64,000 nt of DNA from the NCBI RefSeq assembly GCF_025244925.1, contig NZ_CP104275.1, positions 3,038,001 through 3,102,000 of the forward strand. The letters run 5' to 3'. The notes under the pieces were generated by a model. It had not been told where the DNA came from and ran no database searches. It worked only from the letters and a program-made list of their open reading frames with translations. The stretch is from Arthrobacter zhaoxinii (lineage in GTDB: Bacteria > Actinomycetota > Actinomycetes > Actinomycetales > Micrococcaceae). Shown here in pieces: positions 15,384 to 59,010 of this stretch; the stretch's first letter is position 1; each line of letters starts with the position of its first letter. Both the position numbers and the translations under genes were made by a program.

Positions 15384-17516
15384 ATGACGAGTTCCACGTC
15401 CGGGCGCACCACTAACCGCCCGCATACACTTTTAACCGTACTTTTGGCGTTGTTCCTCATCCTCTTGCTTGCCTTCTTCGTGCTCTTTACGGGCAAGGTA
15501 GCCAACGGAGCAGCGGAGCTGAGTGACGGCGCCGAGCGGGCGTCCACCGGCGCCGGCGACCTCAAGGACGGAGCCGCACGGGCGCAGACCGGTGCCGCCG
15601 ACCTCACCGACGGCACCGAGCAGGTCGACGCCGGCGCTAATACCCTGGCCAAGGGCATCGGCTCCGCGAAAGCGGGTGTGACGACGTTGAAGGAAGGCGC
15701 CACCACCCTGGACGAGGGGGCCCTTCAGCTTCTTACCGGTGCGGAGGCCGCCAACACCGGCGCCAACAAGCTCGCTACCGGTGCGACCAACGCCCGTACC
15801 GGTGCCGGCACGCTGACCGCCGGCGCCTACACCTTGGCGACCGGCGCCGGAACGCTGGCGAGCGGTGGCGCCACTCTCCAGGACGGGGCAGCCCGCATCG
15901 AGGACGGCACCAAACAGCTGGCCGGCGGAACCGCCGAACTGAAAAAGGGCGCCGGGGACGCCAAGGTGGGTGCCGGACAGATAGTTTCCGGTACGGATCG
16001 GCTCGCAGCAGGTATTGCGAAGCTGAATGATCCGCAGAAGGGCGTGCCGTTCCTCGACGCCGGCGCACAGAAGCTGGCAGCGCGCAGCGGTGACGCTGTC
16101 GCGGGCGCCAAGAACCTGGAGGCCGGTGCGCTGGGAATCAAGAACGGTGCTGCCAAGCTGAAGGCAGGCGTCAATGACCTGGCCGCTCCTGAAGCCGCAC
16201 CTGCACTGGCAACCGGTGCCAACGGCCTGAAAGCCGGCATCGACCAGATCATCGCCGCTCCCGAGGCACTCAACAACGGGTCTAGGGACCTGGCTGCCGG
16301 CTTGGTCCAGCTTCAGACCGGGGCCGGGGCGCTCTCCGACAGTGCATCAGGCCTCGCGGTCGCAAACGGTCAGTCGGTAGCAGCCTCGCAGCAGACGGTT
16401 GACGCCCTGACCGCGCTTCAGGGCTCTGCCGGAACCATGACCCCGGCCGAGCTCAACGACGCGTTGGCCAATGCCCTGCGCACCGCCACAGTGGCGAAGG
16501 CAAATGTTGACGGAATTTCCACGTACGCCACCGGCTTTAACACCGGTTACGGCCAGGTTGGCCCTGGTTTGGACGCATTCGTTACTGGAGCTGGCGACTA
16601 CTCCAAAGGCGCGAGCGCCTACAGCGAGGGACTCAAAAATGTGAAGAACGGTGCCGCACGGGTTGCTGTGGGAGCCACCGATGTAAACGACGGAATCCTG
16701 CAGGTCCAGGCGGGGATCAATGACGGCGACGGAACCAACCCGGGGCTCGCCGACGCAACCGAGCAACTGCACGGCGGCACCATGGAACTTTCCAAGGGTT
16801 CCGCCGAGCTGCAGGCAGGCGCCAAGCAGATTGCTGGCGGCACAGCCACGGTGAAGGCAGGTGTCAAGGAGCTCGCAGGCGGCATTCCGGCTCTGCAGAA
16901 GGGCGCGAACGACCTGGAGGCCGGCAACGGCAAGATTGCTGCCGGAACCACTCAGCTAGATGCCGGCGCCAACGAGCTCGCCACGAAGTCGCCGGAGCTG
17001 ACCGCCGGAGCCGGCAAGATTGCTGCCGGCGCAGGTGAGCTCACTACCGGAGCCGGCAAGCTCGCCACCGGCGCAGGAACCCTGGCCACCGGCCTGGACA
17101 CCCTGGAAACCGGCGCTTACTCGCTGGCCGACGGCAACTACAAGATCTACGAAGGCACCATCAGCCTCTCCGACGGCACCAGCCGCCTGGTCACCGGCAC
17201 CGAGTCCCTGGACGAGGGCGTGGTGAAGCTCAACGACGGCGGCAAGACGCTGACCGCCGGCACGGGCAAGCTGAAGGAAGGCGCCGAGAAGCTGGCCGCC
17301 GGCAACACCGAACTCGCCGAAGGCAGCACGACCCTGGCCGACGGGAACGTCAAGATCTCGGAAGGCGCAGACACCATGCGGGCCAGCACCACGGCGCTGA
17401 CCCCCGGCGAAATCTTCACCTCACCGAAGATCCTGGCCGTGCTCATCCCGCTGCTCCTGCTGCTGGTTCCGATCGGTATGCTGATTGCCGGCGCCCGCCG
17501 CGGGACCCAGCACTAG
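15384..17516 (+). CDS. YhgE/Pip-like heptad-repeat membrane protein
   Basis: 710-residue protein made almost wholly of x-x-x-Leu-x-x-Gly-type heptads such as LATGAGTLASGGATL and LTAGAGKIAAGAGEL. It has one membrane helix at residues 18-36 (TLLTVLLALFLILLLAFFVL) and another near the C-terminus (ILAVLIPLLLLLVPIGMLIAG, about 682-702). The central extracytoplasmic part should form a long repeat helix or fibre. Similar repeats occur in YhgE/Pip phage-infection proteins and type VII-associated proteins, but the large YhgE membrane domain is missing. AAAGGAC precedes the ATG. A strong bidirectional terminator follows. Function is unknown; a surface or spacer role is inferred. Confidence 0.8.
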   Translation: MTSSTSGRTTNRPHTLLTVLLALFLILLLAFFVLFTGKVANGAAELSDGAERASTGAGDLKDGAARAQTGAADLTDGTEQVDAGANTLAKGIGSAKAGVTTLKEGATTLDEGALQLLTGAEAANTGANKLATGATNARTGAGTLTAGAYTLATGAGTLASGGATLQDGAARIEDGTKQLAGGTAELKKGAGDAKVGAGQIVSGTDRLAAGIAKLNDPQKGVPFLDAGAQKLAARSGDAVAGAKNLEAGALGIKNGAAKLKAGVNDLAAPEAAPALATGANGLKAGIDQIIAAPEALNNGSRDLAAGLVQLQTGAGALSDSASGLAVANGQSVAASQQTVDALTALQGSAGTMTPAELNDALANALRTATVAKANVDGISTYATGFNTGYGQVGPGLDAFVTGAGDYSKGASAYSEGLKNVKNGAARVAVGATDVNDGILQVQAGINDGDGTNPGLADATEQLHGGTMELSKGSAELQAGAKQIAGGTATVKAGVKELAGGIPALQKGANDLEAGNGKIAAGTTQLDAGANELATKSPELTAGAGKIAAGAGELTTGAGKLATGAGTLATGLDTLETGAYSLADGNYKIYEGTISLSDGTSRLVTGTESLDEGVVKLNDGGKTLTAGTGKLKEGAEKLAAGNTELAEGSTTLADGNVKISEGADTMRASTTALTPGEIFTSPKILAVLIPLLLLLVPIGMLIAGARRGTQH

Positions 17517-18463: not shown

Positions 18464-19093
18464 TCAGGGGGAGATTTTTGATTCGGTTCCGGTACCCGTT
18501 CCGGCCCGCAGCACCGTGGGGTGCAGCGTCACGGAGATAGCCCCGGCCCGCGTGGTCTGCGGCTGGGAGATGCTGTAGGAGGCAGCCTCGCGGATGTCTT
18601 CGAAGAGTCGCTTGCCCTGGCCCACCACCACCGGAAAAATCAGCAGGCGGTACGCGTCCACCAGTCCTGCCGCCGCCAGCGCCTGAACCAGCTGATAGCT
18701 GCCGTGCACCTGCACTTCGCCGCCGTGGCGGGCCTTCACCTGTTCGACGCTGGCCACCAGCTCGCCCTCGAGCAAATGGGTGTTGTGCCAGGGCACCGGC
18801 GGCATGGTTGTGGAGACCAGATACTTGGGCAGCCCGTTCAGTGCCGTGGCTATGGAGTCTCCGGGATCGGTCACTGCCTCCCAGTAGGGCTGCATCATGT
18901 CGTAGGTGTTGCGCCCCAGAAGCAGTGCATCCGCCATGCCGTACCACTCGGAAACAATCTGTTCCAGGTCGGGATCCGCGTGCGGGGTCAGCCAGCCGCC
19001 GCCGGTGAAGCCCCCGGACGCGTCTTCCTCGTTGCTTCCCGGAGCCTGCATGACGCCGTTCAGCGTCAGGAAAGTATTGACCGTCAGCTTCAC
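18464..19093 (-). CDS. Dihydrofolate-reductase-like / RibD C-terminal domain protein
   Basis: 209-residue protein with the RibD_C/DHFR-like fold common in actinobacteria. Typical pieces are LTVNTFLTLNGVMQAPG at the start, ALLLGRNTYDMMQPYW near residue 60, and VHGSYQLVQALAAAGLVDAYRL followed by FPVVVGQGKRLF. Members bind NADPH, but the substrate is usually unknown; a true folate role is unlikely because metabolic DHFR is shorter and differs at the active site. It appears to be a single transcription unit. Confidence 0.85.
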   Translation of the reverse strand: MKLTVNTFLTLNGVMQAPGSNEEDASGGFTGGGWLTPHADPDLEQIVSEWYGMADALLLGRNTYDMMQPYWEAVTDPGDSIATALNGLPKYLVSTTMPPVPWHNTHLLEGELVASVEQVKARHGGEVQVHGSYQLVQALAAAGLVDAYRLLIFPVVVGQGKRLFEDIREAASYSISQPQTTRAGAISVTLHPTVLRAGTGTGTESKISP

Positions 19094-25011: not shown

Positions 25012-25070
25012 TTCATAGTGCAGTAGACGTCCCCTAGCGGGCCAGGCAGCAGCATCTACTGCACTATGAA
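25012..25070. repeat. Hairpin element type C (18-bp arms, 23-nt spacer), locus 1
   Basis: Left arm TTCATAGTGCAGTAGACG (25012-25029) and right arm CATCTACTGCACTATGAA (25053-25070) pair at 17 of 18 positions with a 23-nt spacer. The same element recurs at 37801-37859 and 58529-58587 with the right arm unchanged. Confidence 0.85.
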
Positions 25071-25083
25071 CCTGCGGCGCGGC

Positions 25084-25175
25084 ATCTAGTGAGCAGATAA
25101 CGCCGGTTAGCGGAATCTAGTGAGCAGATTACGGGCTTATTCCGCGGGGATAAGCCCGTTATCTGCTCAGTAGAT
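25084..25175. repeat. Hairpin element type D (GAGCAGATAACG family), locus 1
   Basis: Two tandem left arms (from 25084 and 25115) precede one right arm (25150-25175). The second left arm and the right arm pair at 24 of 26 positions with a 9-nt loop. The first left arm could pair with the same right arm instead, giving alternative folds. Related copies are at 37874-37964 and 58786-59010. Confidence 0.8.
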
Positions 25176-25219
25176 GCGGGTTCAGGGGCTAAGCCTCTTC
25201 GCCGCAGCACGCTTCCGGA

Positions 25220-26603: not shown

Positions 26604-27146
26604 CTACTTGTCCACGATGTTGACTACTACGTTCATGCCGCTGTCCGGGTGATAGCTCCAGGACGCATTGAAGTCCTCCCACTCGGCGGTTTGCCTTCCG
26701 TCCAGAGCTCGAGTACTGCCCATCTGGCTGCTGACGCTGTCCGGCATATCCACTTCATGGAGCACACAGACCATGTCCGCATAGTCGGCACCTGAGGAAT
26801 CCTCACCGGCACCGCTCATCGTCAGGCTCTGCCCTTCGTCGCCGAGCTGGATGTACGGATCATCCTCGACCTGGCATTCCGCCACTGCGTCTGCGAGGGC
26901 ATTGGAAGGTGAGGATAGATCCAGCTCGGCCATCAGAAGGCCCGCACCCAGCCCAACTACCAAGCCCGCTCCGGCAAACAAGGCGTAATTCCGCCGGGTC
27001 CGGAACTGCTGGGCGGCAACAGGATCCCGCGGAGTTATGGGAAGCGGACCTGGGGGTGCCGGCGGTATAACATCCGGAAGACCAGGCCCGGAAAGAGCCT
27101 CCGGGTCGGTATGTGCTCCGGCCTGGCCAAAGGATTCCTGCGTCAT
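26604..27146 (-). CDS. Hypothetical membrane-anchored protein
   Basis: 180-residue protein with a Pro/Gly-rich cytoplasmic N-terminus (PDVIPPAPPGPLPITPRDP), one membrane helix near residues 54-75 (YALFAGAGLVVGLGAGLLMA) and an acidic outer domain. The outer domain contains cysteines near 90 and 127 that could form a disulfide. GGAAGAAG precedes the ATG. It lies 43 bp upstream of the frameshifted lipoprotein on the same strand, suggesting a two-gene surface-protein unit. No domain was recognised. It is divergent from the restriction operon. Confidence 0.65.
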   Translation of the reverse strand: MTQESFGQAGAHTDPEALSGPGLPDVIPPAPPGPLPITPRDPVAAQQFRTRRNYALFAGAGLVVGLGAGLLMAELDLSSPSNALADAVAECQVEDDPYIQLGDEGQSLTMSGAGEDSSGADYADMVCVLHEVDMPDSVSSQMGSTRALDGRQTAEWEDFNASWSYHPDSGMNVVVNIVDK

Positions 27147-27395
27147 GGTCTTCTTCCTTACTGCGATGGGAACTGCTTGGAGAAGCTGCGACCGTTCCCC
27201 CCAACACCTGCAACGGCCGCAGCTTGCGGGAAACGACCTGTGGCCTCATTCCCGCTCCATCAACGTAGGCCTTTGGTTTTAACAAACGGATATAGAAGAC
27301 CGATAACCCTCTTTATCAATGTTTTCCACCGCCAAGATGCTGATAGCCGTACTCTGGACCTAACGCACTCATCCGACAGCAAAGGAGCCACCACA

Positions 27396-29447
27396 GTGAC
27401 CACACCAGCCCGGCTCCTCATCTCGCTTTCAGACATCGCGCTTCTCGCCAAGGTCCAGCGGCCAACCGTCTCCATGTGGCGCAGCCGTTTCCGCGGCAAG
27501 AACTCGCCATTTCCCGAACCCGTCGCGTCCCGTAACGGACAGGAACAATTCGACGCAGGGCAGGTGGCCGAGTGGCTGACCGCAACCGGGCATGGCAACA
27601 ATCCCGACGTCGAGGCGGACCTCGGCGCCTTCGCCGTCGCATCCGATCTGCCCCGGGACACCACTCTGGTCTTCGCGACGCTCACCGCGCTGCTGGCACT
27701 GCGGGTACTTACCGGGGAGACTATGGTCGGCAAAGACGCGGATGAGCTCCTGGACCTGGCCGACGAACAGGATCCCGACGACGAACTGCTCTTCCGGGAA
27801 CTGGACGCCGCCGGCCAGGCGCTGGAGCCGCTGGCCCGCTACGCGGAACTGCTGGTGGAGGGCGCGTTCCACCCGGCCGCGGCCTTCGAGAAGCTGCTGG
27901 CGGACCGTTTCCGCCAGGGGCTGCGCCCACACACCGACGTGGCCCTCACCGAACCGGGGATGGAATTGGTGGCCGCCATCGCCGTCGAGCTGGCCACCGC
28001 ACTTTCGGACGCCCCGGTATTCGCCGACCCGGCCAGCGGCAGCAGCGACCTGCTCCTGGCCGTGGCTCGCATCCTGGGCGACGGCACCGATGCCACTCTC
28101 ATGGGCGGGGACGACGACGGCGGCTCCGCGCGGCTGGTCCGCCGCCGCCTGCTCGTGCATGGGCTGCCCCAGAAGCGGCTGGCCGTCGAACAGTCCGGCG
28201 CCTTCGGCCTGACCGGCTCCGCCGTTCATGTAGCCCAGTATCCGTCCCCCGGATCGCCGGACATGGATGCCCTGCAGGTCCTGAACGCCATCGACCACAG
28301 CGTGCTGCAAATGGATGACCGGCAGCGCGGCGTTGTGCTGGGTCCGGCCTCGGTGCTGTGCGATGTCCTGCCCAAGGGCGACCTGCGGGCGATCCGTTCC
28401 GGACTGATCCGTGACGGCCGCGTCCGGGCAATTGTCCGGCTGCCCAAAGGGCTGCTGAAGAGCAAGCCCCGGCAGATTTCCGCCCTCTGGGTGTTGGGCC
28501 CTTCGCACCCCAACGTGCCCATCCCGGAACGCTGGACCATGGTCGCGGACCTCACCGGTGAAAGCCTGACCCCGGACGTCGTCCAAGACCTGGTCAGCGA
28601 CCTGGCAGCAAGCATGGGTTCCCGGGCGGCCATCTGGGCGCATTCCTTCCGGTTCGCGAGGCTGGTCCTCACCCGGTCCATCCTCCCCGGTGACACTTCG
28701 CTGGTGGCGTCCGCACACGCCGCACCTCCGCAAAGTGTCACCGCCGGAGCCACGGCTGCGCTCCGGGCTGATGACATCCTGGAAGCACTCAGCACCAATA
28801 GTCCAGCAAATACCCTGTTCCGGTATTCGGTTGAACCGGTCACGGAAACACCCGCCCGCCGGCGGCCCCGCGCCCTCGGCGATCTCTTGACGGAGAAGCG
28901 GGTCCATTACGTGCAGGGGAACCGCCTGCACGACGGCGAAACCGGGTCGGGGAACGGCACGCCTGTTCTCGGGGTACCCGAGCTCCTGGGCGAGGTACCG
29001 CTCGGTTCACGCCGAGTGGACCTCATGTCCTTCAGCACCCTGCACGAGAACGGCCGGCTCACGGAACCCGGCGACGTCGTGTTCTGCACCGGGCCGCGAG
29101 CCGCGGCCGTCGTGGACAGCGAGGGGTCCGCCGTCGTCGACTATCCGGCCCGGATCCTCCGGATTAACAAGGAAAGGGCCGGCGGCCTGCTGCCGGAAAT
29201 GCTGACTGCGGATATCAACGCCCAGGCCGGCAACCGCGGCCCGTGGAAGCGCTGGCCGGTCCGCCAGATCCGGGACGATCCCGGGTTGGAGGTGGCCGCC
29301 TTCCTGACCGAAATCGAAACGCAACGCACCCGCGCCCGCGCCCGGCTCGAACAGCTCGAGGAACTCACTACGCTGGTCTTGGACGGCGTAGCCGGAGGAA
29401 CCCTCACCGTGACAGACACATACGCCGCAATGGAAGGAAACAGCTAG
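27396..29447 (+). CDS. Degenerate N6-methylase-like protein with N-terminal HTH and C-terminal specificity-like region
   Basis: 683 residues, first gene of the type I R-M operon. An HTH is seen at residues 6-30 (LSDIALLAKVQRPTVSMWRS). The middle resembles an HsdM catalytic domain, with a motif-I-like FADPASGSSDLLLAVARIL near 208 and the late segment GRVRAIVRLPKGLLKSKPRQ. The NPPF/Y catalytic motif is absent: QYPSPG stands there, near 281. The tail (from about 490) resembles an HsdS half ending EQLEELTTLVLDGVAGGTLT. GTG 27396 with AAAGGAG is chosen over the earlier 27111. It overlaps hsdM (TAGTG). It may be an inactive regulator or targeting subunit; that is inference. Confidence 0.75.
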   Translation: MTTPARLLISLSDIALLAKVQRPTVSMWRSRFRGKNSPFPEPVASRNGQEQFDAGQVAEWLTATGHGNNPDVEADLGAFAVASDLPRDTTLVFATLTALLALRVLTGETMVGKDADELLDLADEQDPDDELLFRELDAAGQALEPLARYAELLVEGAFHPAAAFEKLLADRFRQGLRPHTDVALTEPGMELVAAIAVELATALSDAPVFADPASGSSDLLLAVARILGDGTDATLMGGDDDGGSARLVRRRLLVHGLPQKRLAVEQSGAFGLTGSAVHVAQYPSPGSPDMDALQVLNAIDHSVLQMDDRQRGVVLGPASVLCDVLPKGDLRAIRSGLIRDGRVRAIVRLPKGLLKSKPRQISALWVLGPSHPNVPIPERWTMVADLTGESLTPDVVQDLVSDLAASMGSRAAIWAHSFRFARLVLTRSILPGDTSLVASAHAAPPQSVTAGATAALRADDILEALSTNSPANTLFRYSVEPVTETPARRRPRALGDLLTEKRVHYVQGNRLHDGETGSGNGTPVLGVPELLGEVPLGSRRVDLMSFSTLHENGRLTEPGDVVFCTGPRAAAVVDSEGSAVVDYPARILRINKERAGGLLPEMLTADINAQAGNRGPWKRWPVRQIRDDPGLEVAAFLTEIETQRTRARARLEQLEELTTLVLDGVAGGTLTVTDTYAAMEGNS

Positions 29448-31060
29448 TGCCCCCGAAAACAAAGGTTGCCGCCCTGCCGTCAACCATGAAGGAACTCAAG
29501 GACACACTCTGGAAGGCCGCCGACAAGCTGCGCGGTTCGATGGACGCGTCCCAGTACAAGGACGTGATCCTGGGCCTGGTCTTCCTGAAGTACGTCTCCG
29601 ACGCGTTCGAGGAACGCCGCAGCCAGATCCGGGCAGAGCTGGAAGCGGACGGCATGAACGAGGACCAGATCGCCCAGTTGATCGACGACGTGGACGAGTA
29701 CACCGGGCGCGGCGTCTTCTGGGTGCCGGCACGGGCACGCTGGCAGTACCTGGCCGAAAACGCCAAGGGCACCCAGGCATCCGCCGATGCCCCGGCGAAG
29801 TCCATCGGCGAACTCATCGACGACGCGATGACGCTCATCATGGGCGCCAACCCCACCCTGGCCGCCACGCTGCCCACCATCTACAACCGCGACAACGTGG
29901 ACCAGCGCCGCGTCGGCGAACTGCTGGACCTGCTGAACTCGGCCCGCTTCACCGGCGACGGCGCCAAAAAAGCCCGTGACCTGCTCGGCGAGGTCTACGA
30001 GTACTTCCTCGAGAAGTTCGCCCGCGCCGAGGGAAAGCGGGGCGGCGAATTCTACACGCCTGCCGGCGTCGTCCGCGTGCTCGTAGAGGTCCTTGAACCG
30101 GACCACGGCCGCGTCTACGACCCGTGCTGCGGTTCGGGCGGCATGTTCGTACAGACCGAGAAGTTCCTCGAAGCCCATAACAAGGAGGGCTCGGACATCT
30201 CGGTGTACGGGCAGGAGCTGAACGAGCGCACCTGGCGGATGGCCAAGATGAACCTGGCCATCCACGGTCTGAACGGCAACCTGGCCTCCCGCTGGGGCGA
30301 TACATTCGCCCGGGACCAGCACCCGGAGATGGAAGCCGACTACGTGCTGGCCAACCCGCCGTTCAACATCAAGGACTGGGCCCGCTCCGAGTCCGATCCG
30401 CGCTGGAAGTTCGGCGTCCCGCCGGCCAACAACGCCAACTACGCCTGGATCCAGCACATCATCTCCAAGCTGGCCCCCGGTGGCAAAGCGGGCGTGGTCA
30501 TGGCCAACGGCTCCATGTCCTCCAACTCCGGCGGCGAGGGCCAGATCCGCGCCCAGCTCGTGGAGGCGGATCTGGTCTCCTGCATGATCGCCCTTCCCAC
30601 CCAGCTGTTCCGCAGCACCGGCATCCCGGTCTGCACCTGGTTCTTCGCCAAGGACAAGACCGCGGGCGCCAACGGCTCCATCGACCGTTCCGGCCAGGTG
30701 CTGTTCATTGACGCCCGCAACCTCGGCTTCATGGTGGACCGTGCCGAGCGTGCCCTGTCCGAGGACGACATCAGCAAGATCGCCAACACCTTCCGCGCCT
30801 GGCGCGGCAAGGCTTCCGCGGTCGATGCCGGCCTCGAGTACGACGACGAGCCCGGCTTCTGCTATTCGGCCACCTTGGAGGAGATCAAGGCCGCCGATTA
30901 CGCCCTGACCCCGGGCCGCTACGTCGGTGCTGCCGCGATCGAGGACGATGGAGAGCCGATCGAAGAGAAGATCGAGCGGCTGAAGAAGGAACTGTTCGAG
31001 CAGTTCGAGGAATCTGACCGGCTTGCGAAGGTTGTGCGCGAGCAGTTGGGGCGGATCTGA
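29447..31060 (+). CDS. hsdM: Type I restriction-modification system methyltransferase subunit
   Basis: 537-residue adenine-N6 methyltransferase subunit that works with HsdS, and with HsdR for cleavage. The N-terminal HsdM domain begins KELKDTLWKAADKLRG, followed by DVILGLVFLKYVSDAFEERR. The AdoMet motif VYDPCCGSGGMF is near residue 222 and the catalytic motif NPPFNIKDW near 303. The GTG start at 29447 shares a base with the stop of the preceding methylase-like gene, and AAGGAA lies upstream. Its stop overlaps hsdS (TGATG). All catalytic motifs are intact, so methylation activity is expected. Confidence 0.95.
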   Translation: MPPKTKVAALPSTMKELKDTLWKAADKLRGSMDASQYKDVILGLVFLKYVSDAFEERRSQIRAELEADGMNEDQIAQLIDDVDEYTGRGVFWVPARARWQYLAENAKGTQASADAPAKSIGELIDDAMTLIMGANPTLAATLPTIYNRDNVDQRRVGELLDLLNSARFTGDGAKKARDLLGEVYEYFLEKFARAEGKRGGEFYTPAGVVRVLVEVLEPDHGRVYDPCCGSGGMFVQTEKFLEAHNKEGSDISVYGQELNERTWRMAKMNLAIHGLNGNLASRWGDTFARDQHPEMEADYVLANPPFNIKDWARSESDPRWKFGVPPANNANYAWIQHIISKLAPGGKAGVVMANGSMSSNSGGEGQIRAQLVEADLVSCMIALPTQLFRSTGIPVCTWFFAKDKTAGANGSIDRSGQVLFIDARNLGFMVDRAERALSEDDISKIANTFRAWRGKASAVDAGLEYDDEPGFCYSATLEEIKAADYALTPGRYVGAAAIEDDGEPIEEKIERLKKELFEQFEESDRLAKVVREQLGRI

Positions 31061-32301
31061 TGGCTGAGCTGACATATCATCGGCTACGAGATGTTGTGGA
31101 TGTCTCTGACTTCGTCGCCAACGGCAGTTTTGAGTCGTTGCGAAACAACGTCACGACCTCCACTACACCAGGCTTCGCAGTCCTCGTGAGACTCGTCGAT
31201 TACAACGCTGGCTGGACAGGACCCTTCAGCTACGTTGACGAATCCTCATATAAGTTCCTAAAGAAGAGCCGCCTCATCCCTGGCGATGTCATCATTAGCA
31301 ACGTTGGCGCAAATGCTGGCACGGTTTTCAGAGTCCCAGATTTAGGGATGCCAACAACGCTGGGGCCGAATGCAGTAGTCTGTCGCCCAATTGACCCTGA
31401 TGTGCTCCGTCAGGATTTTTTCTACTACCTGATGTCTTCTCCTGTAGGTCAAGACTTGCTGGAATCGATAATTAGCGGTAGTGCGCAGCCGAAATTTAAC
31501 AAGACCGCTTTACGCCAAATTCGACTGTCCATACCGTCCTCTGCTGAGCAGCGGGCGATCGCTGAGGTGCTGGGGGCCCTCGACGACAAGATCGCCGCCA
31601 ACACCAAGCTCACTGAGATGCTTACCCACTCCCTCTCCGCCTCTTACCAGAAAGTAGTTGGAAGTCCAGAGGAGCTCGTTCCTTTCTCGGATCTAGTTAC
31701 AGTCACTAAGGGCGTCTCATACAAGAGCGTCGACCTCACCGAGTCGTCGACCGCCCTAGTCACGCTAAAATCCTTCGACCGTAACGGAGGCTACTCGGCC
31801 AGAGGCCTCAAGGAGTACTCGGGCCCCCATAAGCCGCAACAAGTCATCCGACCTGGAGATCTGGTAGTGGCCCAAACAGACCTCACGCAAGCTGCCGAAG
31901 TCGTTGGCCGCGCAGTACGCGTTCCGGCCAGCAGCCGGCACTCCACACTTGTCGCCAGTTTGGATTTGGCAATCGTGCGCCCGGCCGGGGACGAGCCGGA
32001 AGAGTTTCTGCTCGGCACGATGCTTCAAGGCCGGTTCCGCACGCATTGTCAGAGCCTGACCAGCGGAACGACAGTACTTCACCTGAAATCGGACGCAATT
32101 CAATCGTTTATGGCGCCATTGGTTTCACGAGAGATACAGCTTCGGTATGCAGCATTGGCGCGACCTATGTTGCACCTGGGTGATTCCATAACGGCGGAAA
32201 ACGAAACCCTCGCCGCCACCCGCGACGCACTGCTACCGCAGCTGATGTCCGGGAAGCTGCGAGTAAAAGATATTGAAAACACCATGGGGGAAATGGTCTA
32301 A
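31060..32301 (+). CDS. hsdS: Type I restriction-modification system specificity subunit
   Basis: 413-residue subunit that sets the DNA target. Two target-recognition domains (about 1-150 and 200-350) are each followed by a helical conserved region: SSAEQRAIAEVLGALDDKIA near 163 and NETLAATRDALLPQLMSGKL near the end. These helices act as the ruler between half-sites. The DNA is visibly more A+T-rich than hsdM and hsdR, especially in the first recognition domain (31090-31500), as is common for exchanged HsdS modules. It is coupled by overlap to hsdM and abuts hsdR (stop then ATG directly). The recognition sequence cannot be predicted here. Confidence 0.95.
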   Translation: MAELTYHRLRDVVDVSDFVANGSFESLRNNVTTSTTPGFAVLVRLVDYNAGWTGPFSYVDESSYKFLKKSRLIPGDVIISNVGANAGTVFRVPDLGMPTTLGPNAVVCRPIDPDVLRQDFFYYLMSSPVGQDLLESIISGSAQPKFNKTALRQIRLSIPSSAEQRAIAEVLGALDDKIAANTKLTEMLTHSLSASYQKVVGSPEELVPFSDLVTVTKGVSYKSVDLTESSTALVTLKSFDRNGGYSARGLKEYSGPHKPQQVIRPGDLVVAQTDLTQAAEVVGRAVRVPASSRHSTLVASLDLAIVRPAGDEPEEFLLGTMLQGRFRTHCQSLTSGTTVLHLKSDAIQSFMAPLVSREIQLRYAALARPMLHLGDSITAENETLAATRDALLPQLMSGKLRVKDIENTMGEMV

Positions 32302-35300
32302 ATGGCACAGGCACAGCAGCTGGGGTACTCCGAAGCCGATTGGGAAGGCAGCGCATTGGAGATGCTCGCCGAACCGCTCGGCTGGCGCCCGAAAACCGGA
32401 CAGGACATCGCACCCGGCACCGGCGAGCGCGATACCTGGGATGAGCTGCTCATCCGGCCCCGGCTGCTGGCCGCCCTGCAGAGGTTCAATCCGACAGTAC
32501 CCGTCCAGTACCTGAAGCAGGCCCTGGCGGAAATCGCCGCCCCCAAGTCCGCCGATGCCATCACCGAGAACAAGCGCATCCATGACTACCTCACCGGCGG
32601 CTTCCGGCTCACCTACATCGACGCGGACGGCACCGAGGTCAGCCCCACGCTGCGCCTGCTCAGCCACGACCCGGACGAGAACGACTGGCTGGCCGTCAAC
32701 CAAGTCACCCTCCAGCACGGCGACTATAAACGCCGCTTCGACCTGGTGCTCTACTGCAACGGTATGCCCGTGAGCATCATCGAGCTGAAGAAGGCCGGCA
32801 GCAAGAACGCCGACGTCGCCGCGGCTCACAACCAGCTCGCCACCTATCTGCGCGAATTCCCCATGGCGTTCCGGTTCTGCGTCTTCACGCTCGCCTCCGA
32901 CGGACTGTTCGCCAAATACGGCACCCCGTTCACCCCGTTCAACCACTTCTCGCCCTGGAACGTGGACGACGACGGCAAGCCGGTCGCGCCGGGCGCTCTG
33001 CTCGACGGCGAACCCGCCACCGGCCTGGATACCGCCCTGTTGGGCCTGTACAACCAGGAACGGTTCCTGCAGCTGGTCAACAACTTCGCCGCCTTCGACG
33101 AGGGCGCCTCCGGCCTGACGAAGCGGATCGCCAAGCCGCACCAGTACTTCGCCGTCACCAAAGCCGTGGGCAACACCGTCCAGGCAGTAGGCAGCAACGG
33201 CAAGGCCGGCGTCGTCTGGCACACCCAGGGCTCGGGCAAGTCCATGGAAATGGAGCTCTACACCAACCTGGTGGTCCGCCACCCCAAGCTGCGCAACCCC
33301 ACCGTCGTCGTCATCACCGACCGCAACGAACTGGACGGGCAGCTGTACGAAACCTTCGTGCAGAGCCAGCTGCTGCCCGAGACCGCCCGGCAGATCCGTA
33401 AACGCTCCGAACTGCGCGAAGAGCTGAGCAGCCGCACCACTGGCGGCATCTACTTCACCACGCTGCAGAAGTTCGGCCGCAGTCAGGCCGAGCGCGACGC
33501 CGGCGCGGAGCACCCGCTGCTCTCCGACCGGACCAACATCATTGTGGTGGTGGATGAAGCGCACCGCAGCCACTACGACAACCTGGACGGCTACGCGCGG
33601 CACCTGCGCGACGCCCTGCCGCACGCCACCCTGATCGCCTTCACCGGCACCCCCATCTCCTTCGAGGACCGCAACACCCGCGACGTGTTCGGCGACTACA
33701 TCGACATCTACGACCTCAATCGGGCGGTCGACGACGGCGCCACCGTCCCCGTGTACTTCGAGCCGCGGCTGATCAAGGTCGGCCTGGCCGAAGGCATCAC
33801 CGAGGAATCCCTGGATGAGGCCGCCGATGAAGCCACTGCCGGCCTGGACGATACCGAGCGGGCGCGCATCGAGCAGAGCGTCGCCGTCGTCAACGCCGTG
33901 TACGGGGCTCCGGAGCGCATCGCCGCACTCGCCCAGGACCTGGTGGCGCACTGGGAACGGCGCCGGGAGCAGATGGGCAAGTTTATCGATGCGCCGGGCA
34001 AGGCCATGATCGTGGGGGCCACCCGTGAGATCTGTGCCCGGCTCTATGACGCCATTGTGCAGATCCGTCCGGACTGGCACTCGGATGAGCTCGACAAGGG
34101 CAAGATCAAGGTGGTGTACTCCGGCACGGCCTCGGACACTCCCCCGGTCTCCAACCATGTCCGTCGCGACTCGATGAACGCCGTCATCAAGGAACGGCTC
34201 AAGACCGTGGATGACGAGCTGGAACTGGTGATCGTCAAGGACATGATGCTCACCGGCTACGACTCCCCGCCCCTGCACACCCTTTACCTGGACCGGCCGC
34301 TGAAGGGCGCCCTGCTGATGCAGACCCTCGCCCGGGTGAACCGCACCTTCCGCGGCAAGGAGGACGGCCTGCTCGTGGCCTACGCCCCGCTGGCGGAAAA
34401 CCTCGCCGCCGCGCTGAAGGAATACAGCCGGCAGGACGGCAAGCAGCAGCCGCTGGGCAAGAACATCGACGAAGCCATCGCGCTCACCGAAACCCTGGTG
34501 GAAAAGCTGCGGGAGCTGCTTGCCGGACACAACTGGAAGGCCACGCTGAACAAGGGCGGCCCGAAAGCGTTCCTGCACGCCGTCACCGGAGCGGTGAACT
34601 ACCTGCGCGATCCACTCACCCCCGGAAACCAGCCGGAGCCCGACGGCGAAAGCCTCGCCTCCCAATACCGGCGGTATTCCGGGCAGCTGGCGCGGGCGTG
34701 GGCACTGTGCTCGGGCTCCGAGCATCTGTCCCGACTGCTGCCCGAGATCAAGGTCTACGAAGAAATCCGGGTCTGGATGGCCAAGTGGGATGCCGAGGAC
34801 CGCCAGTCCCGCGGCGAGCCCGTGCCCGAGGACATCTCCCGGCTACTCGGTCAGCTGATCGCCACCTCGACGGTCTCCGGGGAGGTACTGGACATTTACG
34901 AGGCCGCCGGCATGCCGAAGCCGTCGCTGGATGACCTGACGCCGGAATTCATGGCCCAGACCCAGCAGGCAAGGAACCCGCAGCTGGCCATCGAAGCGCT
35001 CCGGAAACTCATCTCGGAGGAGGCCACCCGCACCACGCGCAACAACGCCATCCGTGAGCGGGCCTTCTCGGAGCGGATCACCGAGCTGATGAACAAATAC
35101 ACCAACCAGCAGCTGACTTCCGCAGAGGTGATCGCCGCTCTCGTGGAGCTGGCCAAGGAGGTCTCACAGGAGAAGGACCGAGGCAAGCAGTTCTCGCCGG
35201 CGCTGAACGAGGACGAGCTGGCGTTCTACGACGCGGTGTCACAGAACGAGTCCGCGGTGGATGTGCAGGGCGAAGGCGTCCTGGCGAACATTGCCCGCGA

Positions 35301-35499
35301 TCTGGTGAAGGTAATGCGCCGCGACGTCCGCACGGACTGGACCGTGCGCGACGACGTCCGGGCCAAGCTGCGCTCCTCGATCAAACGGCTCCTGGTCCTG
35401 AACGGTTACCCGCCGGACAAGCAGCCGGCCGCCATCAAGCTCGTCATGGAGCAGATGGAGTCCATGGCCCCGCGGTTTGCGGAGGCGCGGGCGGGCTAG
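32302..35499 (+). CDS. hsdR: Type I restriction endonuclease, motor and nuclease subunit
   Basis: 1065-residue translocating nuclease that cuts unmodified DNA when complexed with HsdM and HsdS. The N-terminal PD-(D/E)xK nuclease is visible as RRFDLVLYCNGMPVSIIELKK (Asp near residue 146, ELK near 161). The motor has Walker A WHTQGSGKS near 306-314, the DEAH box VVDEAHRS near 418, TLIAFTGTP and the late helicase motif LLMQTLARVNRTFRGKEDG. A long helical C-terminal region contacts the methylase core. The ATG immediately follows the hsdS stop. The gene looks intact, so the system should restrict. Confidence 0.95.
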   Translation: MAQAQQLGYSEADWEGSALEMLAEPLGWRPKTGQDIAPGTGERDTWDELLIRPRLLAALQRFNPTVPVQYLKQALAEIAAPKSADAITENKRIHDYLTGGFRLTYIDADGTEVSPTLRLLSHDPDENDWLAVNQVTLQHGDYKRRFDLVLYCNGMPVSIIELKKAGSKNADVAAAHNQLATYLREFPMAFRFCVFTLASDGLFAKYGTPFTPFNHFSPWNVDDDGKPVAPGALLDGEPATGLDTALLGLYNQERFLQLVNNFAAFDEGASGLTKRIAKPHQYFAVTKAVGNTVQAVGSNGKAGVVWHTQGSGKSMEMELYTNLVVRHPKLRNPTVVVITDRNELDGQLYETFVQSQLLPETARQIRKRSELREELSSRTTGGIYFTTLQKFGRSQAERDAGAEHPLLSDRTNIIVVVDEAHRSHYDNLDGYARHLRDALPHATLIAFTGTPISFEDRNTRDVFGDYIDIYDLNRAVDDGATVPVYFEPRLIKVGLAEGITEESLDEAADEATAGLDDTERARIEQSVAVVNAVYGAPERIAALAQDLVAHWERRREQMGKFIDAPGKAMIVGATREICARLYDAIVQIRPDWHSDELDKGKIKVVYSGTASDTPPVSNHVRRDSMNAVIKERLKTVDDELELVIVKDMMLTGYDSPPLHTLYLDRPLKGALLMQTLARVNRTFRGKEDGLLVAYAPLAENLAAALKEYSRQDGKQQPLGKNIDEAIALTETLVEKLRELLAGHNWKATLNKGGPKAFLHAVTGAVNYLRDPLTPGNQPEPDGESLASQYRRYSGQLARAWALCSGSEHLSRLLPEIKVYEEIRVWMAKWDAEDRQSRGEPVPEDISRLLGQLIATSTVSGEVLDIYEAAGMPKPSLDDLTPEFMAQTQQARNPQLAIEALRKLISEEATRTTRNNAIRERAFSERITELMNKYTNQQLTSAEVIAALVELAKEVSQEKDRGKQFSPALNEDELAFYDAVSQNESAVDVQGEGVLANIARDLVKVMRRDVRTDWTVRDDVRAKLRSSIKRLLVLNGYPPDKQPAAIKLVMEQMESMAPRFAEARAG

Positions 35500-35518
35500 T
35501 CCGCTTTTGGTTCACCTT

Positions 35519-35545
35519 GTGGCCCGGCCGTTTGTGCCGGGCCAC
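35519..35545 (+). terminator. Hairpin terminator after hsdR
   Basis: Perfect 10-bp stem GTGGCCCGGC / GCCGGGCCAC with a 7-nt loop, 20 bp after the hsdR stop and followed by a T/C-rich run. It partly separates hsdR from the unknown gene at 35622, which therefore may have its own promoter or depend on read-through. Confidence 0.75.
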
Positions 35546-35621
35546 TGCCCTGCTCTTTTCCCTTACCCTTTTTCTCTCCACCCGCGTCAACGATGACGCG
35601 CTGCCCGAAAGACGATCCACC

Positions 35622-37574
35622 TTGCTCGAAAAAGAACTTCGCCAGAAACTCCAGCCCCTCCGGGATGATCTGGCCCGTGCCACTGACCCCGAATACGACG
35701 AGAAGGCGCCGGTCCACCGACTGGCCAAGGAACTCAACCGGTCGATCCAGTGGGTCATCCGTAAGAGTGGTGGCGACGCCGAGGAAATGCATGCGAGCTA
35801 CCGCCTGACCACGGCTCAGGAATCCCACGTCAGGGAGGCCCACCGTCAGGAGTTGACGGTCCCCGAAGGGCATCCTGACAGCCTCTCCATGACACTTTCG
35901 CGGCTCGCCCGTGATCTGATGCTGCCTCGCATCGACGTCATAAATGAGGTAATCCTCCGTGGAGTACCTCGGGAGGAAGCGACCCCGACACTGATGTTGT
36001 ACACCTCCGAGGTGCAGGTACTGCTTGAATTCTTCGGGAAGCGCTGGAAATGGCGGCAGGACCATCCGCTCCCCTATACACCGAGTGCTGACGGCAGGAT
36101 CTCCTTCGAGACATACGAGCGGATCCGCCAGGACGAACGCGAAAGCCTCGAGAGGGAGGGGTTGCTACCCTCCCGTTTAGAGTTGTCCCGCCATCCCAAA
36201 CGGGAGTGGCCACAAATCATTGAGCATTCGCAGCGTTTGAAATCTCAGCCACCGCTTCCGACGGCCACGCGAAACGTAAGTACCGCCTCAGCGTCGAGTT
36301 CTGTGAATGTGCTTTCCTTGGCGTCCGGGGGTGAGTCTCAAAAGCCCGCAGCCAAATCTGGCAAGCCGTTCGGGAAGAACGGTATACCTGCCAAATCCGC
36401 GCTCAGATCACCAGATCCTGAGGCTGCCGTCAAGCTCGCTCTGAGTCATGATGCCCACGCTGCGGGGCGAGTGAAGAGGTTACAGATAGCCGCAGCAACG
36501 AACACTGCTTTGACCCCTCCGAAGCCGGCCTCTGTAGCTCAGCTGCAAAACCGCAAGGTAGTGGGACTGATTCAAAAGGAGGTGGAGGGCGGACAGCATA
36601 CCGGCTTGTCTCCCGAGCCCGCATTCCGGACCTATCGCACCACCGTGAGTGCTGGTTCCACTGCGGTTGCAGACCTGCAGGAGACTCTAAAAGAGTTCCA
36701 TCCGCGGATGTATGCCACATTCTTCGATCAGTTCCGGGATGTTCTGGCGGTGGACAGGCTAGTCGCGAGGACCATGCGGGCAGGGAGAGGATTCATCGCC
36801 ACGGACCCCGAGCATGTCCGGATTATCAACGAGGTTTGTGAGTACAGCTACGGGATTTTCGCCTACTGGGAGATGGGCTCCAGAATTGGCCGTAAGGCGC
36901 GGAGCCTTCCACTCCCGTCTGCCAAGAAAGTCAAAACCGCTCTAGTGAAGCTCCGCCCTATGTACATGGGCGTACTGACCGATCTGTGCCACCGGCGCTT
37001 TGTTTTCTGGCGGGTTGGAAAGATCTGGGACCTATTGGAAGTCCGGTTCGACGACGTACATGACTGGTTGGACGGCTTAGCTACCGGAGAATATGTTCCA
37101 CTTACAACGCACCACATTCCGCTGGGCAACTATAAGAACGTTGCCGCCTGCACAGACTTCTCTAACCGCGACCAGGACATAGTGAAGTTCATGTCGGAAG
37201 CCGCTGAGAACCTACGGCAGGGAGTCCACGGAGTCCGGGGTAAAAAGGCAACCAATAGTGCTGCGGCATTCGAGCCTCGAACAACGGGAGCATCGGGTTC
37301 GTCAGGGCAAAGGACGCTTGGGTACCGGCCGGAGAACACGTGGCTGGTCCCGATCACCATCACTAACGGGCAGGTCGACACCACCCTCGACGAGGATTTC
37401 TTCAGCTCGCCGGACGACATGAAACCACATGAAGTTCGGTCGTTTTACCGCCGGCCCAGAGGATCTTCACCCAACGCTCCTCGAACCGAATTTGTCAGCG
37501 GACACATCCGCGGAGGACGCGGTGCATTCGCCGATATGAAGCTACTCCCAGCGGTCACTATCGGCCGTAGATAA
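35622..37574 (+). CDS. Unknown protein downstream of the type I R-M operon
   Basis: About 650 residues; no family recognised. The first 160 residues are charged and helical (LLEKELRQKLQPLRDDLARA; AKELNRSIQWVIRKSGG, HTH-like in feel). Residues about 210-300 are Ser/Ala/Lys-rich and probably a flexible linker. The later half is a compact domain with FFDQFRDVLAVDRLVARTMR, LTDLCHRRFVFWRVGKIWDL and LTTHHIPLGNYKN. No membrane helix or standard nuclease, NTPase or methylase motif was seen. The frame is open from TTG 35517, but that crosses the hsdR terminator; TTG 35622 is preferred, weakly. Base composition is lower in GC than the core genes. A defence accessory is possible but unproven. Confidence 0.6.
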   Translation: MLEKELRQKLQPLRDDLARATDPEYDEKAPVHRLAKELNRSIQWVIRKSGGDAEEMHASYRLTTAQESHVREAHRQELTVPEGHPDSLSMTLSRLARDLMLPRIDVINEVILRGVPREEATPTLMLYTSEVQVLLEFFGKRWKWRQDHPLPYTPSADGRISFETYERIRQDERESLEREGLLPSRLELSRHPKREWPQIIEHSQRLKSQPPLPTATRNVSTASASSSVNVLSLASGGESQKPAAKSGKPFGKNGIPAKSALRSPDPEAAVKLALSHDAHAAGRVKRLQIAAATNTALTPPKPASVAQLQNRKVVGLIQKEVEGGQHTGLSPEPAFRTYRTTVSAGSTAVADLQETLKEFHPRMYATFFDQFRDVLAVDRLVARTMRAGRGFIATDPEHVRIINEVCEYSYGIFAYWEMGSRIGRKARSLPLPSAKKVKTALVKLRPMYMGVLTDLCHRRFVFWRVGKIWDLLEVRFDDVHDWLDGLATGEYVPLTTHHIPLGNYKNVAACTDFSNRDQDIVKFMSEAAENLRQGVHGVRGKKATNSAAAFEPRTTGASGSSGQRTLGYRPENTWLVPITITNGQVDTTLDEDFFSSPDDMKPHEVRSFYRRPRGSSPNAPRTEFVSGHIRGGRGAFADMKLLPAVTIGRR

Positions 37575-37800: not shown

Positions 37801-37859
37801 TTCATAGTGCAGTAGATGTCCCCTAGCCGGCTGGCACCCAGCATCTACTGCACTATGAA
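37801..37859. repeat. Hairpin element type C, locus 2
   Basis: Perfect 18-bp inverted repeat TTCATAGTGCAGTAGATG (37801-37818) / CATCTACTGCACTATGAA (37842-37859) around a 23-nt spacer. Confidence 0.88.
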
Positions 37860-37873
37860 CCCGCGGCGCGGCA

Positions 37874-37964
37874 CCTAGTGAGCAGATAACGGGGTTTAGC
37901 GGAATCCAGTGAGCAGATAACGCGGCTATTCAGCAGGGATAAGCCCGTTATCTGCTCAGTAGAT
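37874..37964. repeat. Hairpin element type D, locus 2
   Basis: Two left arms with GTGAGCAGATAACG precede the single right arm CGTTATCTGCTCAGTAGAT (37946-37964). The 12-bp core pairs perfectly. Same layout as locus 1. Confidence 0.8.
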
Positions 37965-37977
37965 GCGGGTTCAGGGG

Positions 37978-38226
37978 CTAAGCCTCTTCGTCTTCACCGG
38001 CCGGGGGCTGGGGCGTCCCGCCGCCGGTGCCGTGCATCCACAGGACCACGTCCATGGCGCGAAGCCGGGAAATCCGGTGTGGCAGTTCCGCCCGACGCTG
38101 GATTTCGTCGAGGCGGAGGGGGAGCGCCCCGCTGTCCTCAGTGAGCGCCGCGTGCCAATCAGTCACCGGGTCAGGGAGTACTTCAGGCTCATCCCCGATT
38201 CCCAGATGGGGATCAAGCGATTCCCG
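37978..38226 (-). pseudogene. DUF6308 remnant, copy 3 (3' fragment)
   Basis: Only the C-terminal third of a DUF6308 gene remains. Homology to copy 2 starts near 38224 (RLIPIW), is broken by an indel with a frame change around 38170-38200, and then continues as TDWHAALTEDSG and PHRISRLRAMDVVLWM to a short altered tail. Nothing upstream could supply the missing N-terminal part, since an unrelated membrane-protein gene starts at 38274. The fragment marks the right end of the putative island and shows that the island junction falls inside a DUF6308 gene. Confidence 0.75.
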
Positions 38227-58785: not shown

Positions 58786-59010
58786 GATCTACTGAGCAGA
58801 TAATGCGCTTATGGCCACCGGATAACCCCGTTATCTGCTCAGCAGATCCCGAACCCCCGCGAATAACCCCGTTATCTGCTCAGCAGATCCCGAACCCCCG
58901 CGAATAACCCCGTTATCTGCTCAGCAGAAACCGGACCCCCGCGAATAACCCCGTTATCTGCTCAGCAGAAACCGGACCCCCGCGAATAACCCCGTTATCT
59001 GCTCAGCAGA
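58786..59010. repeat. Type D hairpin plus 41-bp tandem array, locus 3
   Basis: Left arm GATCTACTGAGCAGATAATG (58786-58805) pairs at 18 of 20 positions with the first right arm (58829-58848). The right arm CGTTATCTGCTCAGCAGA then recurs at 58829, 58870, 58911, 58952 and 58993, exactly every 41 bp, with near-identical sequence between. Unvarying spacers and the absence of cas genes exclude a CRISPR array. Confidence 0.88.

Follow-up and report, generated by a model that had tools for sequence, protein, structure and literature searches.

The first gene of a Type I restriction-modification (R-M) operon in Arthrobacter zhaoxinii encodes a protein of 683 amino acids, here named PM (27396..29447, plus strand), that is probably a transcription regulator of its own R-M system. 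It has the sequence of a methylase whose catalytic motifs are lost, and comparison of related loci predicts that it binds a palindrome in its own promoter. All coordinates refer to the window, the whole stretch of 64,000 nucleotides that was analyzed (contig NZ_CP104275.1, positions 3,038,001 to 3,102,000 of the forward strand). Here the operon has the order PM-hsdM-hsdS-hsdR, with hsdM (29447..31060, catalytic motifs intact in the motif alignment), hsdS (31060..32301) and hsdR (32302..35499), all on the plus strand, assigned by domain and PADLOC matches and hsdR by NCBIfam as well. PADLOC scores the window's HsdM with 611 bits as a Type I methylase and with 168 bits as mad2; the NCBIfam cut-offs for MAD2 and MAD5 are missed by HsdM (54.6 bits vs 720) and by HsdS (34.6 vs 400), and PM matches neither. 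The whole R-M island is flanked by direct repeats of 190 nt, 89% identical, at 25012-25201 and 37801-37990, about 12.8 kb apart, and further copies of 143 nt (78%) adjoin them. Downstream of hsdR lies an ORF of 685 amino acids (35517-37574, plus strand) without a match in Pfam, NCBIfam or PADLOC; a 49% relative of it also follows hsdR in the genome G566 (L100).

Translation of PM starts at a GTG at 27396, preceded by the ribosome-binding site AAAGGAG at 27381-27387, and the TAG stop (29445-29447) shares one base with the GTG start of hsdM. Among 18 relatives, 15 junctions could be read; the stop codon of PM overlaps the hsdM start in 11 of these and is close to it in the other four. A preliminary description of this DNA had given the ORF, its coordinates and its motifs correctly, and had proposed an N-terminal HTH, the outline of an HsdM core and an HsdS-like end, with a normal hsdM following in coupled translation; each of these elements was recovered. 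The HTH region (residues 8-66, 27417..27593, plus strand) is HTH_17/MerR-like as judged from alignment, Pfam and relatives, chiefly from alignment, since the Pfam signal is weak: HTH_17 is called in one of 16 PM members, and several distant relatives that share the layout match it under the cut-off. Residues 147-473 approximately (27834..28814, plus strand) match HsdM in profile-profile comparison with a pairwise E of 4e-6 and a probability of 87%, and the Pfam N6_Mtase model (PF02384) falls slightly short of its cut-off (19.5 bits vs 20.4). The match of residues 519-666 approximately (28950..29393, plus strand), a target-recognition domain (TRD) plus helix, to half an HsdS is weaker, with a pairwise E of 2.4e-4 and a probability of only 43%; one half aligns, and not the two target-recognition domains with conserved helices that characterize an HsdS. 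PADLOC has no match to PM, Pfam barely detects it, and sequence searches of the PDB returned nothing significant.

Both catalytic motifs of the methylase are affected. Motif I is degenerate (VFADPASGSSDLLLA, 28017..28061, plus strand), and even a loose G-x-G pattern fits just three of the 46 aligned copies of PM. At the position of the HsdM motif IV, NPPF, the window has QYPSPG (28236..28253, plus strand), and [NDS]PP[FYWH] is found at or near this position in none of the 46 copies, the window included. The HsdM adjoining PM has NPPF in 46 of 46 cases and DPxCGSGG in 46 of 46, so that the loss of NPPF, which the preliminary description had noted in this one protein, is conserved and stands out against an intact neighbor. 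By this loss of motifs PM is, on the evidence of its sequence, a catalytically dead methylase. That it should nevertheless function as a methylase through an uncommon catalytic motif is extremely improbable: distant relatives of the same layout do keep NPPY, NPPF or DPPY, but within the PM family the motif IV position is not just altered, it varies (QYPSPG, SYPPPG, HFPAAN, LQLAS), and the glycine pattern of motif I is likewise disrupted.

In spite of this loss the gene is not decaying. Nei-Gojobori dN/dS values were calculated for eight pairs of PM genes, six of them with a whole-gene dS above 0.4; in these six the ratio is about 0.17-0.29 for the whole gene and 0.08-0.28 for the M-like part. 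The two closest pairs gave about 0.26 and 0.47, with changes too few to weigh. PM is thus kept by purifying selection, the pseudo-methylase region included, and a decaying pseudogene was rejected on the ground that dN/dS was at most 0.38 in each of three measured regions in the six pairs with dS above 0.4. Mean pairwise identity is 55% in the HTH, 38% in the former cofactor half, 55% in the second M half (301-430), 46% in the TRD-like part and 38% in the last helix.

Proteins with an HTH, an N6 methylase and a tail also occur elsewhere in the phylum. Motif IV is intact in six distant relatives, as DPPY in L066, L068 and L086 and as NPPY/F in L091, L094 and L096; others (L087-L090, L092, L093, L095, L070 and L071) have HPPF, HPPY, YPPT, DPPA or EPPM, and in L067, L069, L072-L074, L076 and L084 the motif was not found. 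Homologues with an intact NPPF/Y, which the preliminary description had named as evidence against its reading, are therefore present among the distant relatives (six loci) and absent from the 46 aligned copies. Judged from these motifs, the active site appears to have weakened on more than one occasion among such proteins. Several of these relatives lie directly upstream of hsdM, e.g. in L066, L067, L068, L071, L072, L084 and L094. In L066 (5058-11613, minus strand) the gene of the DPPY protein precedes two HsdM genes that differ from each other, then hsdS, and hsdR adjoins them; the row encodes three methylase-like proteins. Four solo HTH-methylase proteins that belong to a single genus in a different family within the same class (L088, L090, L093 and L095) have HPPF or HPPY, and a TCACA-N8-TGTGA palindrome is found upstream of these four among the ten loci examined (L087-L096); perhaps it is their own operator.

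A scan of genome contigs yielded 18 PM relatives, mostly from Arthrobacter and its kin plus Cryobacterium and Isoptericola, one of them (L018) plasmid-borne. Near the PM locus L101 an abiF RNA (16697-16732, minus strand) scores above the Rfam gathering threshold. In the window's family, the Micrococcaceae, the PM profile matches in 47 of 245 genomes, some via the HTH only, and 40 strong PM loci are present in 38 of the 245; in a sample of the phylum 13 of 396 genomes match, mostly through the HTH. Within the 245 family genomes, 39 of the 41 hsdM genes at 79% identity or more adjoin PM. In a further one, G499, PM and hsdM are split over contigs with the end of PM just upstream of hsdM, which brings the count to 40 of 41. 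The exception among the 41 close hsdM genes is G473 (L128), where a close hsdM and the complete hsdMSR are present without PM or its site, so that the R-M system can do without PM. Of 11 hsdM genes at 54-56% identity, three have a very diverged PM relative upstream and eight have none. The idea that other HTH regulators take the slot before hsdM where PM is absent was dropped, as the neighbors scanned are UDG-like, BPS1-like, TIM-barrel or of no family, and the scan gave no HTH. No paper on the PM family or its operator was recognised in the open-licence PMC literature that was searched.

The evidence for a regulatory role comes from the promoter. Upstream of PM lies the predicted operator CGATAACCCTCTTTATCA (27301..27318, without strand), with the core GATAA-N6-TTATC at 27302-27317, the single exact occurrence of this core in the 3.47-Mb genome. 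We compared 48 upstream regions, taken from the distinct PM loci that matched at an E of at most 1e-100 and whose N-terminus could be read; L017, L018 and L112 (frameshifted; L112 is the L017 locus), L122 (a fragment) and L084 (weaker) stand outside this set, and the 46-row set also omits L013 and L123, with no HsdM within the sequence piece. The palindrome is found in 48 of 48 loci, 47 times exactly and once with one mismatch, nine of its ten core bases being invariant throughout and the tenth in 47; the exact site is also present in L017, L018 and L112. On the PM side a TANNNT hexamer stands at 31-33 nt from the palindrome in 45 of the 48 loci (TACTCT at 27350..27355, plus strand, 31 nt past the operator, in the window), and an opposite -10-like hexamer stands at 32-34 nt on the other side in 44 (TACGTT at 27262..27267, minus strand, 33 nt from the operator). 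The -10 hexamer on the PM side carries 0.80-1.21 bits of information at five of its six positions. No -35 consensus was seen at 8-30 nt on the PM side, where information peaks at 0.41 bits in one position. Note that start codons were chosen by rule, and that the long distances in L097, L110 and L116 may reflect wrong starts.

In the 245 family genomes the motif TGATAA-N6-TTATCR occurs at 58 sites, 37 of them at most 300 bp upstream of a strong PM, two before a detached hsdR (G419, G447), one before a D2 gene (see below; G429) and 18 without an evident link. Seen from the gene, the exact site is present at 37 of the 39 strong PM loci whose upstream sequence was available, and G490 and G409 have it with one and two mismatches. 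At nine hsdM loci without PM no site was found at up to two mismatches, giving a Fisher p of 1e-10 against the 48 PM loci with related loci counted as independent; eight of the nine have an HsdM that is only 54-56% identical and are the weaker control for it. L084, from another order and with a PM of 28-34% identity, retains a one-mismatch site. The same 110-kb contig has a second operator-like palindrome, TGGTAACCCCCGTTATCA, at 18667-18684, about 8 kb from PM and before another gene. Upstream of the distant relatives no palindrome of the GATAA type was found in 20 of the 22 examined, and L074 has one imperfect candidate.

Should the palindrome belong to another, unlinked regulator, PM would ride beside it by chance. 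The 18 sites without evident PM link fit such a view, as does the fact that binding by PM is deduced from sequence comparison. Against it, the site is scarce and in most cases linked to the system, it is absent from the nine hsdM loci without PM, and it accompanies PM in loci beyond the family (L005, L019) and in a different order (L084), where a host regulator common to all of them would need to track PM; we regard this explanation as quite unlikely. Two further candidates were discarded. The palindrome as the recognition site of the R-M system is at odds with an HsdS that changes from locus to locus beside a constant palindrome, and GATAA-N5-TTATC as the operator proved to be a repeat family, found also in genomes without PM. 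In the window these repeats, operator half-sites with a spacer shorter by one base that also occur in kin without PM, form tandem units about every 41 bp at 58799-58999 and are found at 25149 and 37938 as well.

A second copy of the site is found where hsdR has left the operon. Of 17 hsdR genes at least 3 kb from hsdS or on another contig, 12 have an operator-like site, always 67-75 nt ahead of the start; of 28 hsdR genes within 2 kb of the end of hsdS, none has one (at up to two core mismatches; Fisher p 2e-7, related loci counted as independent). The distance between hsdS and hsdR was taken from a conserved motif close to the end of hsdS, or from coordinates for loci with only 1.5 kb upstream, and the 17 detached genes omit L169 with its broken hsdR as well as duplicate loci. 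Eleven of the 12 sites have an intact left half, TGATAA, and ten have a degenerate right half, so that this usually half-degenerate copy is presumably the weaker site. Random windows of 400 nt reach the score of an hsdR site in 117 of 2448 cases, the 12 sites are not independent as nine come from one genus (three genera in all), and five detached hsdR genes (L099, L103, L158, L162 and L163) lack a site. Taken with the promoter palindrome, this copy lends strong comparative support to the suggestion of the preliminary description that the protein could regulate the operon.

The promoter on the far side of the operator leads to genes of two families, D1 and D2, both of which look by eye like single-pass membrane proteins with outer domains. 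In the window this is D1 (26604..27146, minus strand), with an apparent single membrane helix, also judged by eye, and an outer domain with two invariant cysteines; it often adjoins PM, and its family has a conserved TRALDG...W...YHPD ending at the C-terminus. Pfam gave no informative or convincing family for either protein. In 44 of the 48 loci D1 and/or D2 lie no more than 2.5 kb from the operator and are transcribed outward from it, and at least one of them lies within 3.5 kb of 35 of the 40 strong PM loci in the family; the D1 starts assigned in other loci may be wrong. As obligatory partners of PM they were rejected, with PM absent in 18 of 37 D1 rows and in 13 of the strongest 43 of 60 D2 rows. 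Since they occur without PM, e.g. at the corresponding chromosomal position in relatives of the window's genus, they may be regulated neighbors or mark a favored place of insertion. The leader of the divergent gene contains a hairpin (27183..27225, minus strand; loop with TTGGGGGG) recognized by stem and loop counts. A GC-rich stem of at least 12 bp with a GGGG loop is found in the divergent leaders of 27 of 48 loci vs 7 of 480 Markov-shuffled controls, and TTGGGGG occurs in the first 200 nt in 28 of 48 vs 29 of 1920 random windows. The loop is kept, often as TTGGGGG, and the stem sequences differ; the z-score of the fold energy averages only a modest -1.3 in 40 loci, and Rfam returned nothing relevant for the hairpin.

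Which protein of these loci reads the palindrome can be approached by their covariation. HsdS has a mean identity of 28% between loci and does not correlate with HsdM (r 0.07); PM identity tracks HsdM (r 0.60) and not HsdS (r 0.12). HsdS, replaced freely and uncorrelated with PM while the site is constant, is an unlikely constant binder, and PM is the sole common protein of these loci in which an HTH was seen. The same figures tell against a role of PM in setting or altering specificity, an option of the preliminary description that gained no support for a protein lacking the catalytic motif and not following HsdS. In a related reading PM would be a structural or specificity subunit, a dead half M-S unit that joins HsdM or HsdS and alters the site or strand of action of the complex. 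The M-like region and, more weakly, the S-like tail are recognizable, the M-like part 301-430 is conserved like the HTH (55% mean identity), and translation is coupled to hsdM; PM nonetheless varies independently of HsdS, G473 has hsdMSR without it, and the HTH and the constant promoter palindrome would be left unexplained. We consider such a subunit unlikely.

As a regulator, PM would bind TGATAA-N6-TTATCA as two molecules between back-to-back promoters, one serving PM-hsdM-hsdS(-hsdR) and the other a divergent gene for an envelope protein. A detached hsdR often has a separate copy of the site, which is half-degenerate in most cases and presumably weaker, and modification and restriction might in this way be tuned or timed separately, as they are by C proteins and the methylase-repressors of the SsoII type. 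Binding of the site by PM, the domain used, its dimer state and the sign of control are all points that we infer. The HTH could be the binding part, or the tail could, as a dimer of half-HsdS would also read a two-part palindrome. Judged by spacing, activation appears slightly favored over repression, because a constant 31-33 nt separate the site from the -10 box and no consensus could be seen for a -35 box. The conserved M/S-like body of 680 amino acids would have no explanation in a PM that served just as a small regulator. As PM resembles one M plus half an S, it is conceivable that free HsdM or HsdS docks on it. PM might then be a sensor of stoichiometry that releases restriction once the methylase is assembled and also controls the divergent envelope genes, a possibility that we put forward tentatively and think rather doubtful.

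C proteins are small HTH proteins, and PM differs from them in its 683 amino acids made of methylase parts; no model of a controller protein was among its Pfam, PADLOC or NCBIfam matches. It resembles them as a dedicated candidate regulator within the operon, with operators of apparently different strength and a predicted separate control of restriction (PMC12707154, PMC3874152). In Type II systems C proteins can postpone restriction when the system enters a new host (PMC12707154, PMC3874152), and the review PMC12707154 also names a repressor of the C family for an hsd locus in Mycoplasma. In shape PM resembles the SsoII/Ecl18kI-type methylases, with an HTH joined to a methylase and an inverted-repeat site near R-M promoters (PMC3978073, PMC12707154). 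For M.SsoII, PMC3978073 places the N-terminal regulatory domain on the inverted repeat and proposes the methylase domains on flanking DNA. Both are methylase-shaped regulators, a role that in PM is predicted; the SsoII/Ecl18kI-type proteins are active cytosine-5 methylases of Type II systems (PMC3978073, PMC12707154). PM in contrast is HsdM-like (N6) with dead motifs and an HsdS-like half, stands beside a separate, motif-intact HsdM, and has no active C5 methylase fused to its HTH. The nearest published Type I case that we found is RptR, a repressor of Type I R-M islands in Gammaproteobacteria, a four-helix protein of 9 kDa that binds TAGCTA repeats over the -10 box (PMC12255303). PM is likewise the first gene of a Type I R-M operon with a conserved operator in its own promoter, and differs from RptR, as described in PMC12255303, in size, architecture and operator. 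To the Type I subunits themselves PM is linked through residues 147-473 and 519-666 approximately, by profile comparison, and it departs from them in the loss of both catalytic motifs, the added HTH and the single S-like half.

To our knowledge the control of Type I restriction upon entry into a new cell is poorly known. With a candidate regulator that is built from the enzyme's own parts, a likely operator and a mostly weakened operator copy at hsdR, delayed Type I restriction would become directly testable in these bacteria. If PM were in addition a sensor of stoichiometry, restriction would be linked to the cell surface via the divergent envelope proteins.
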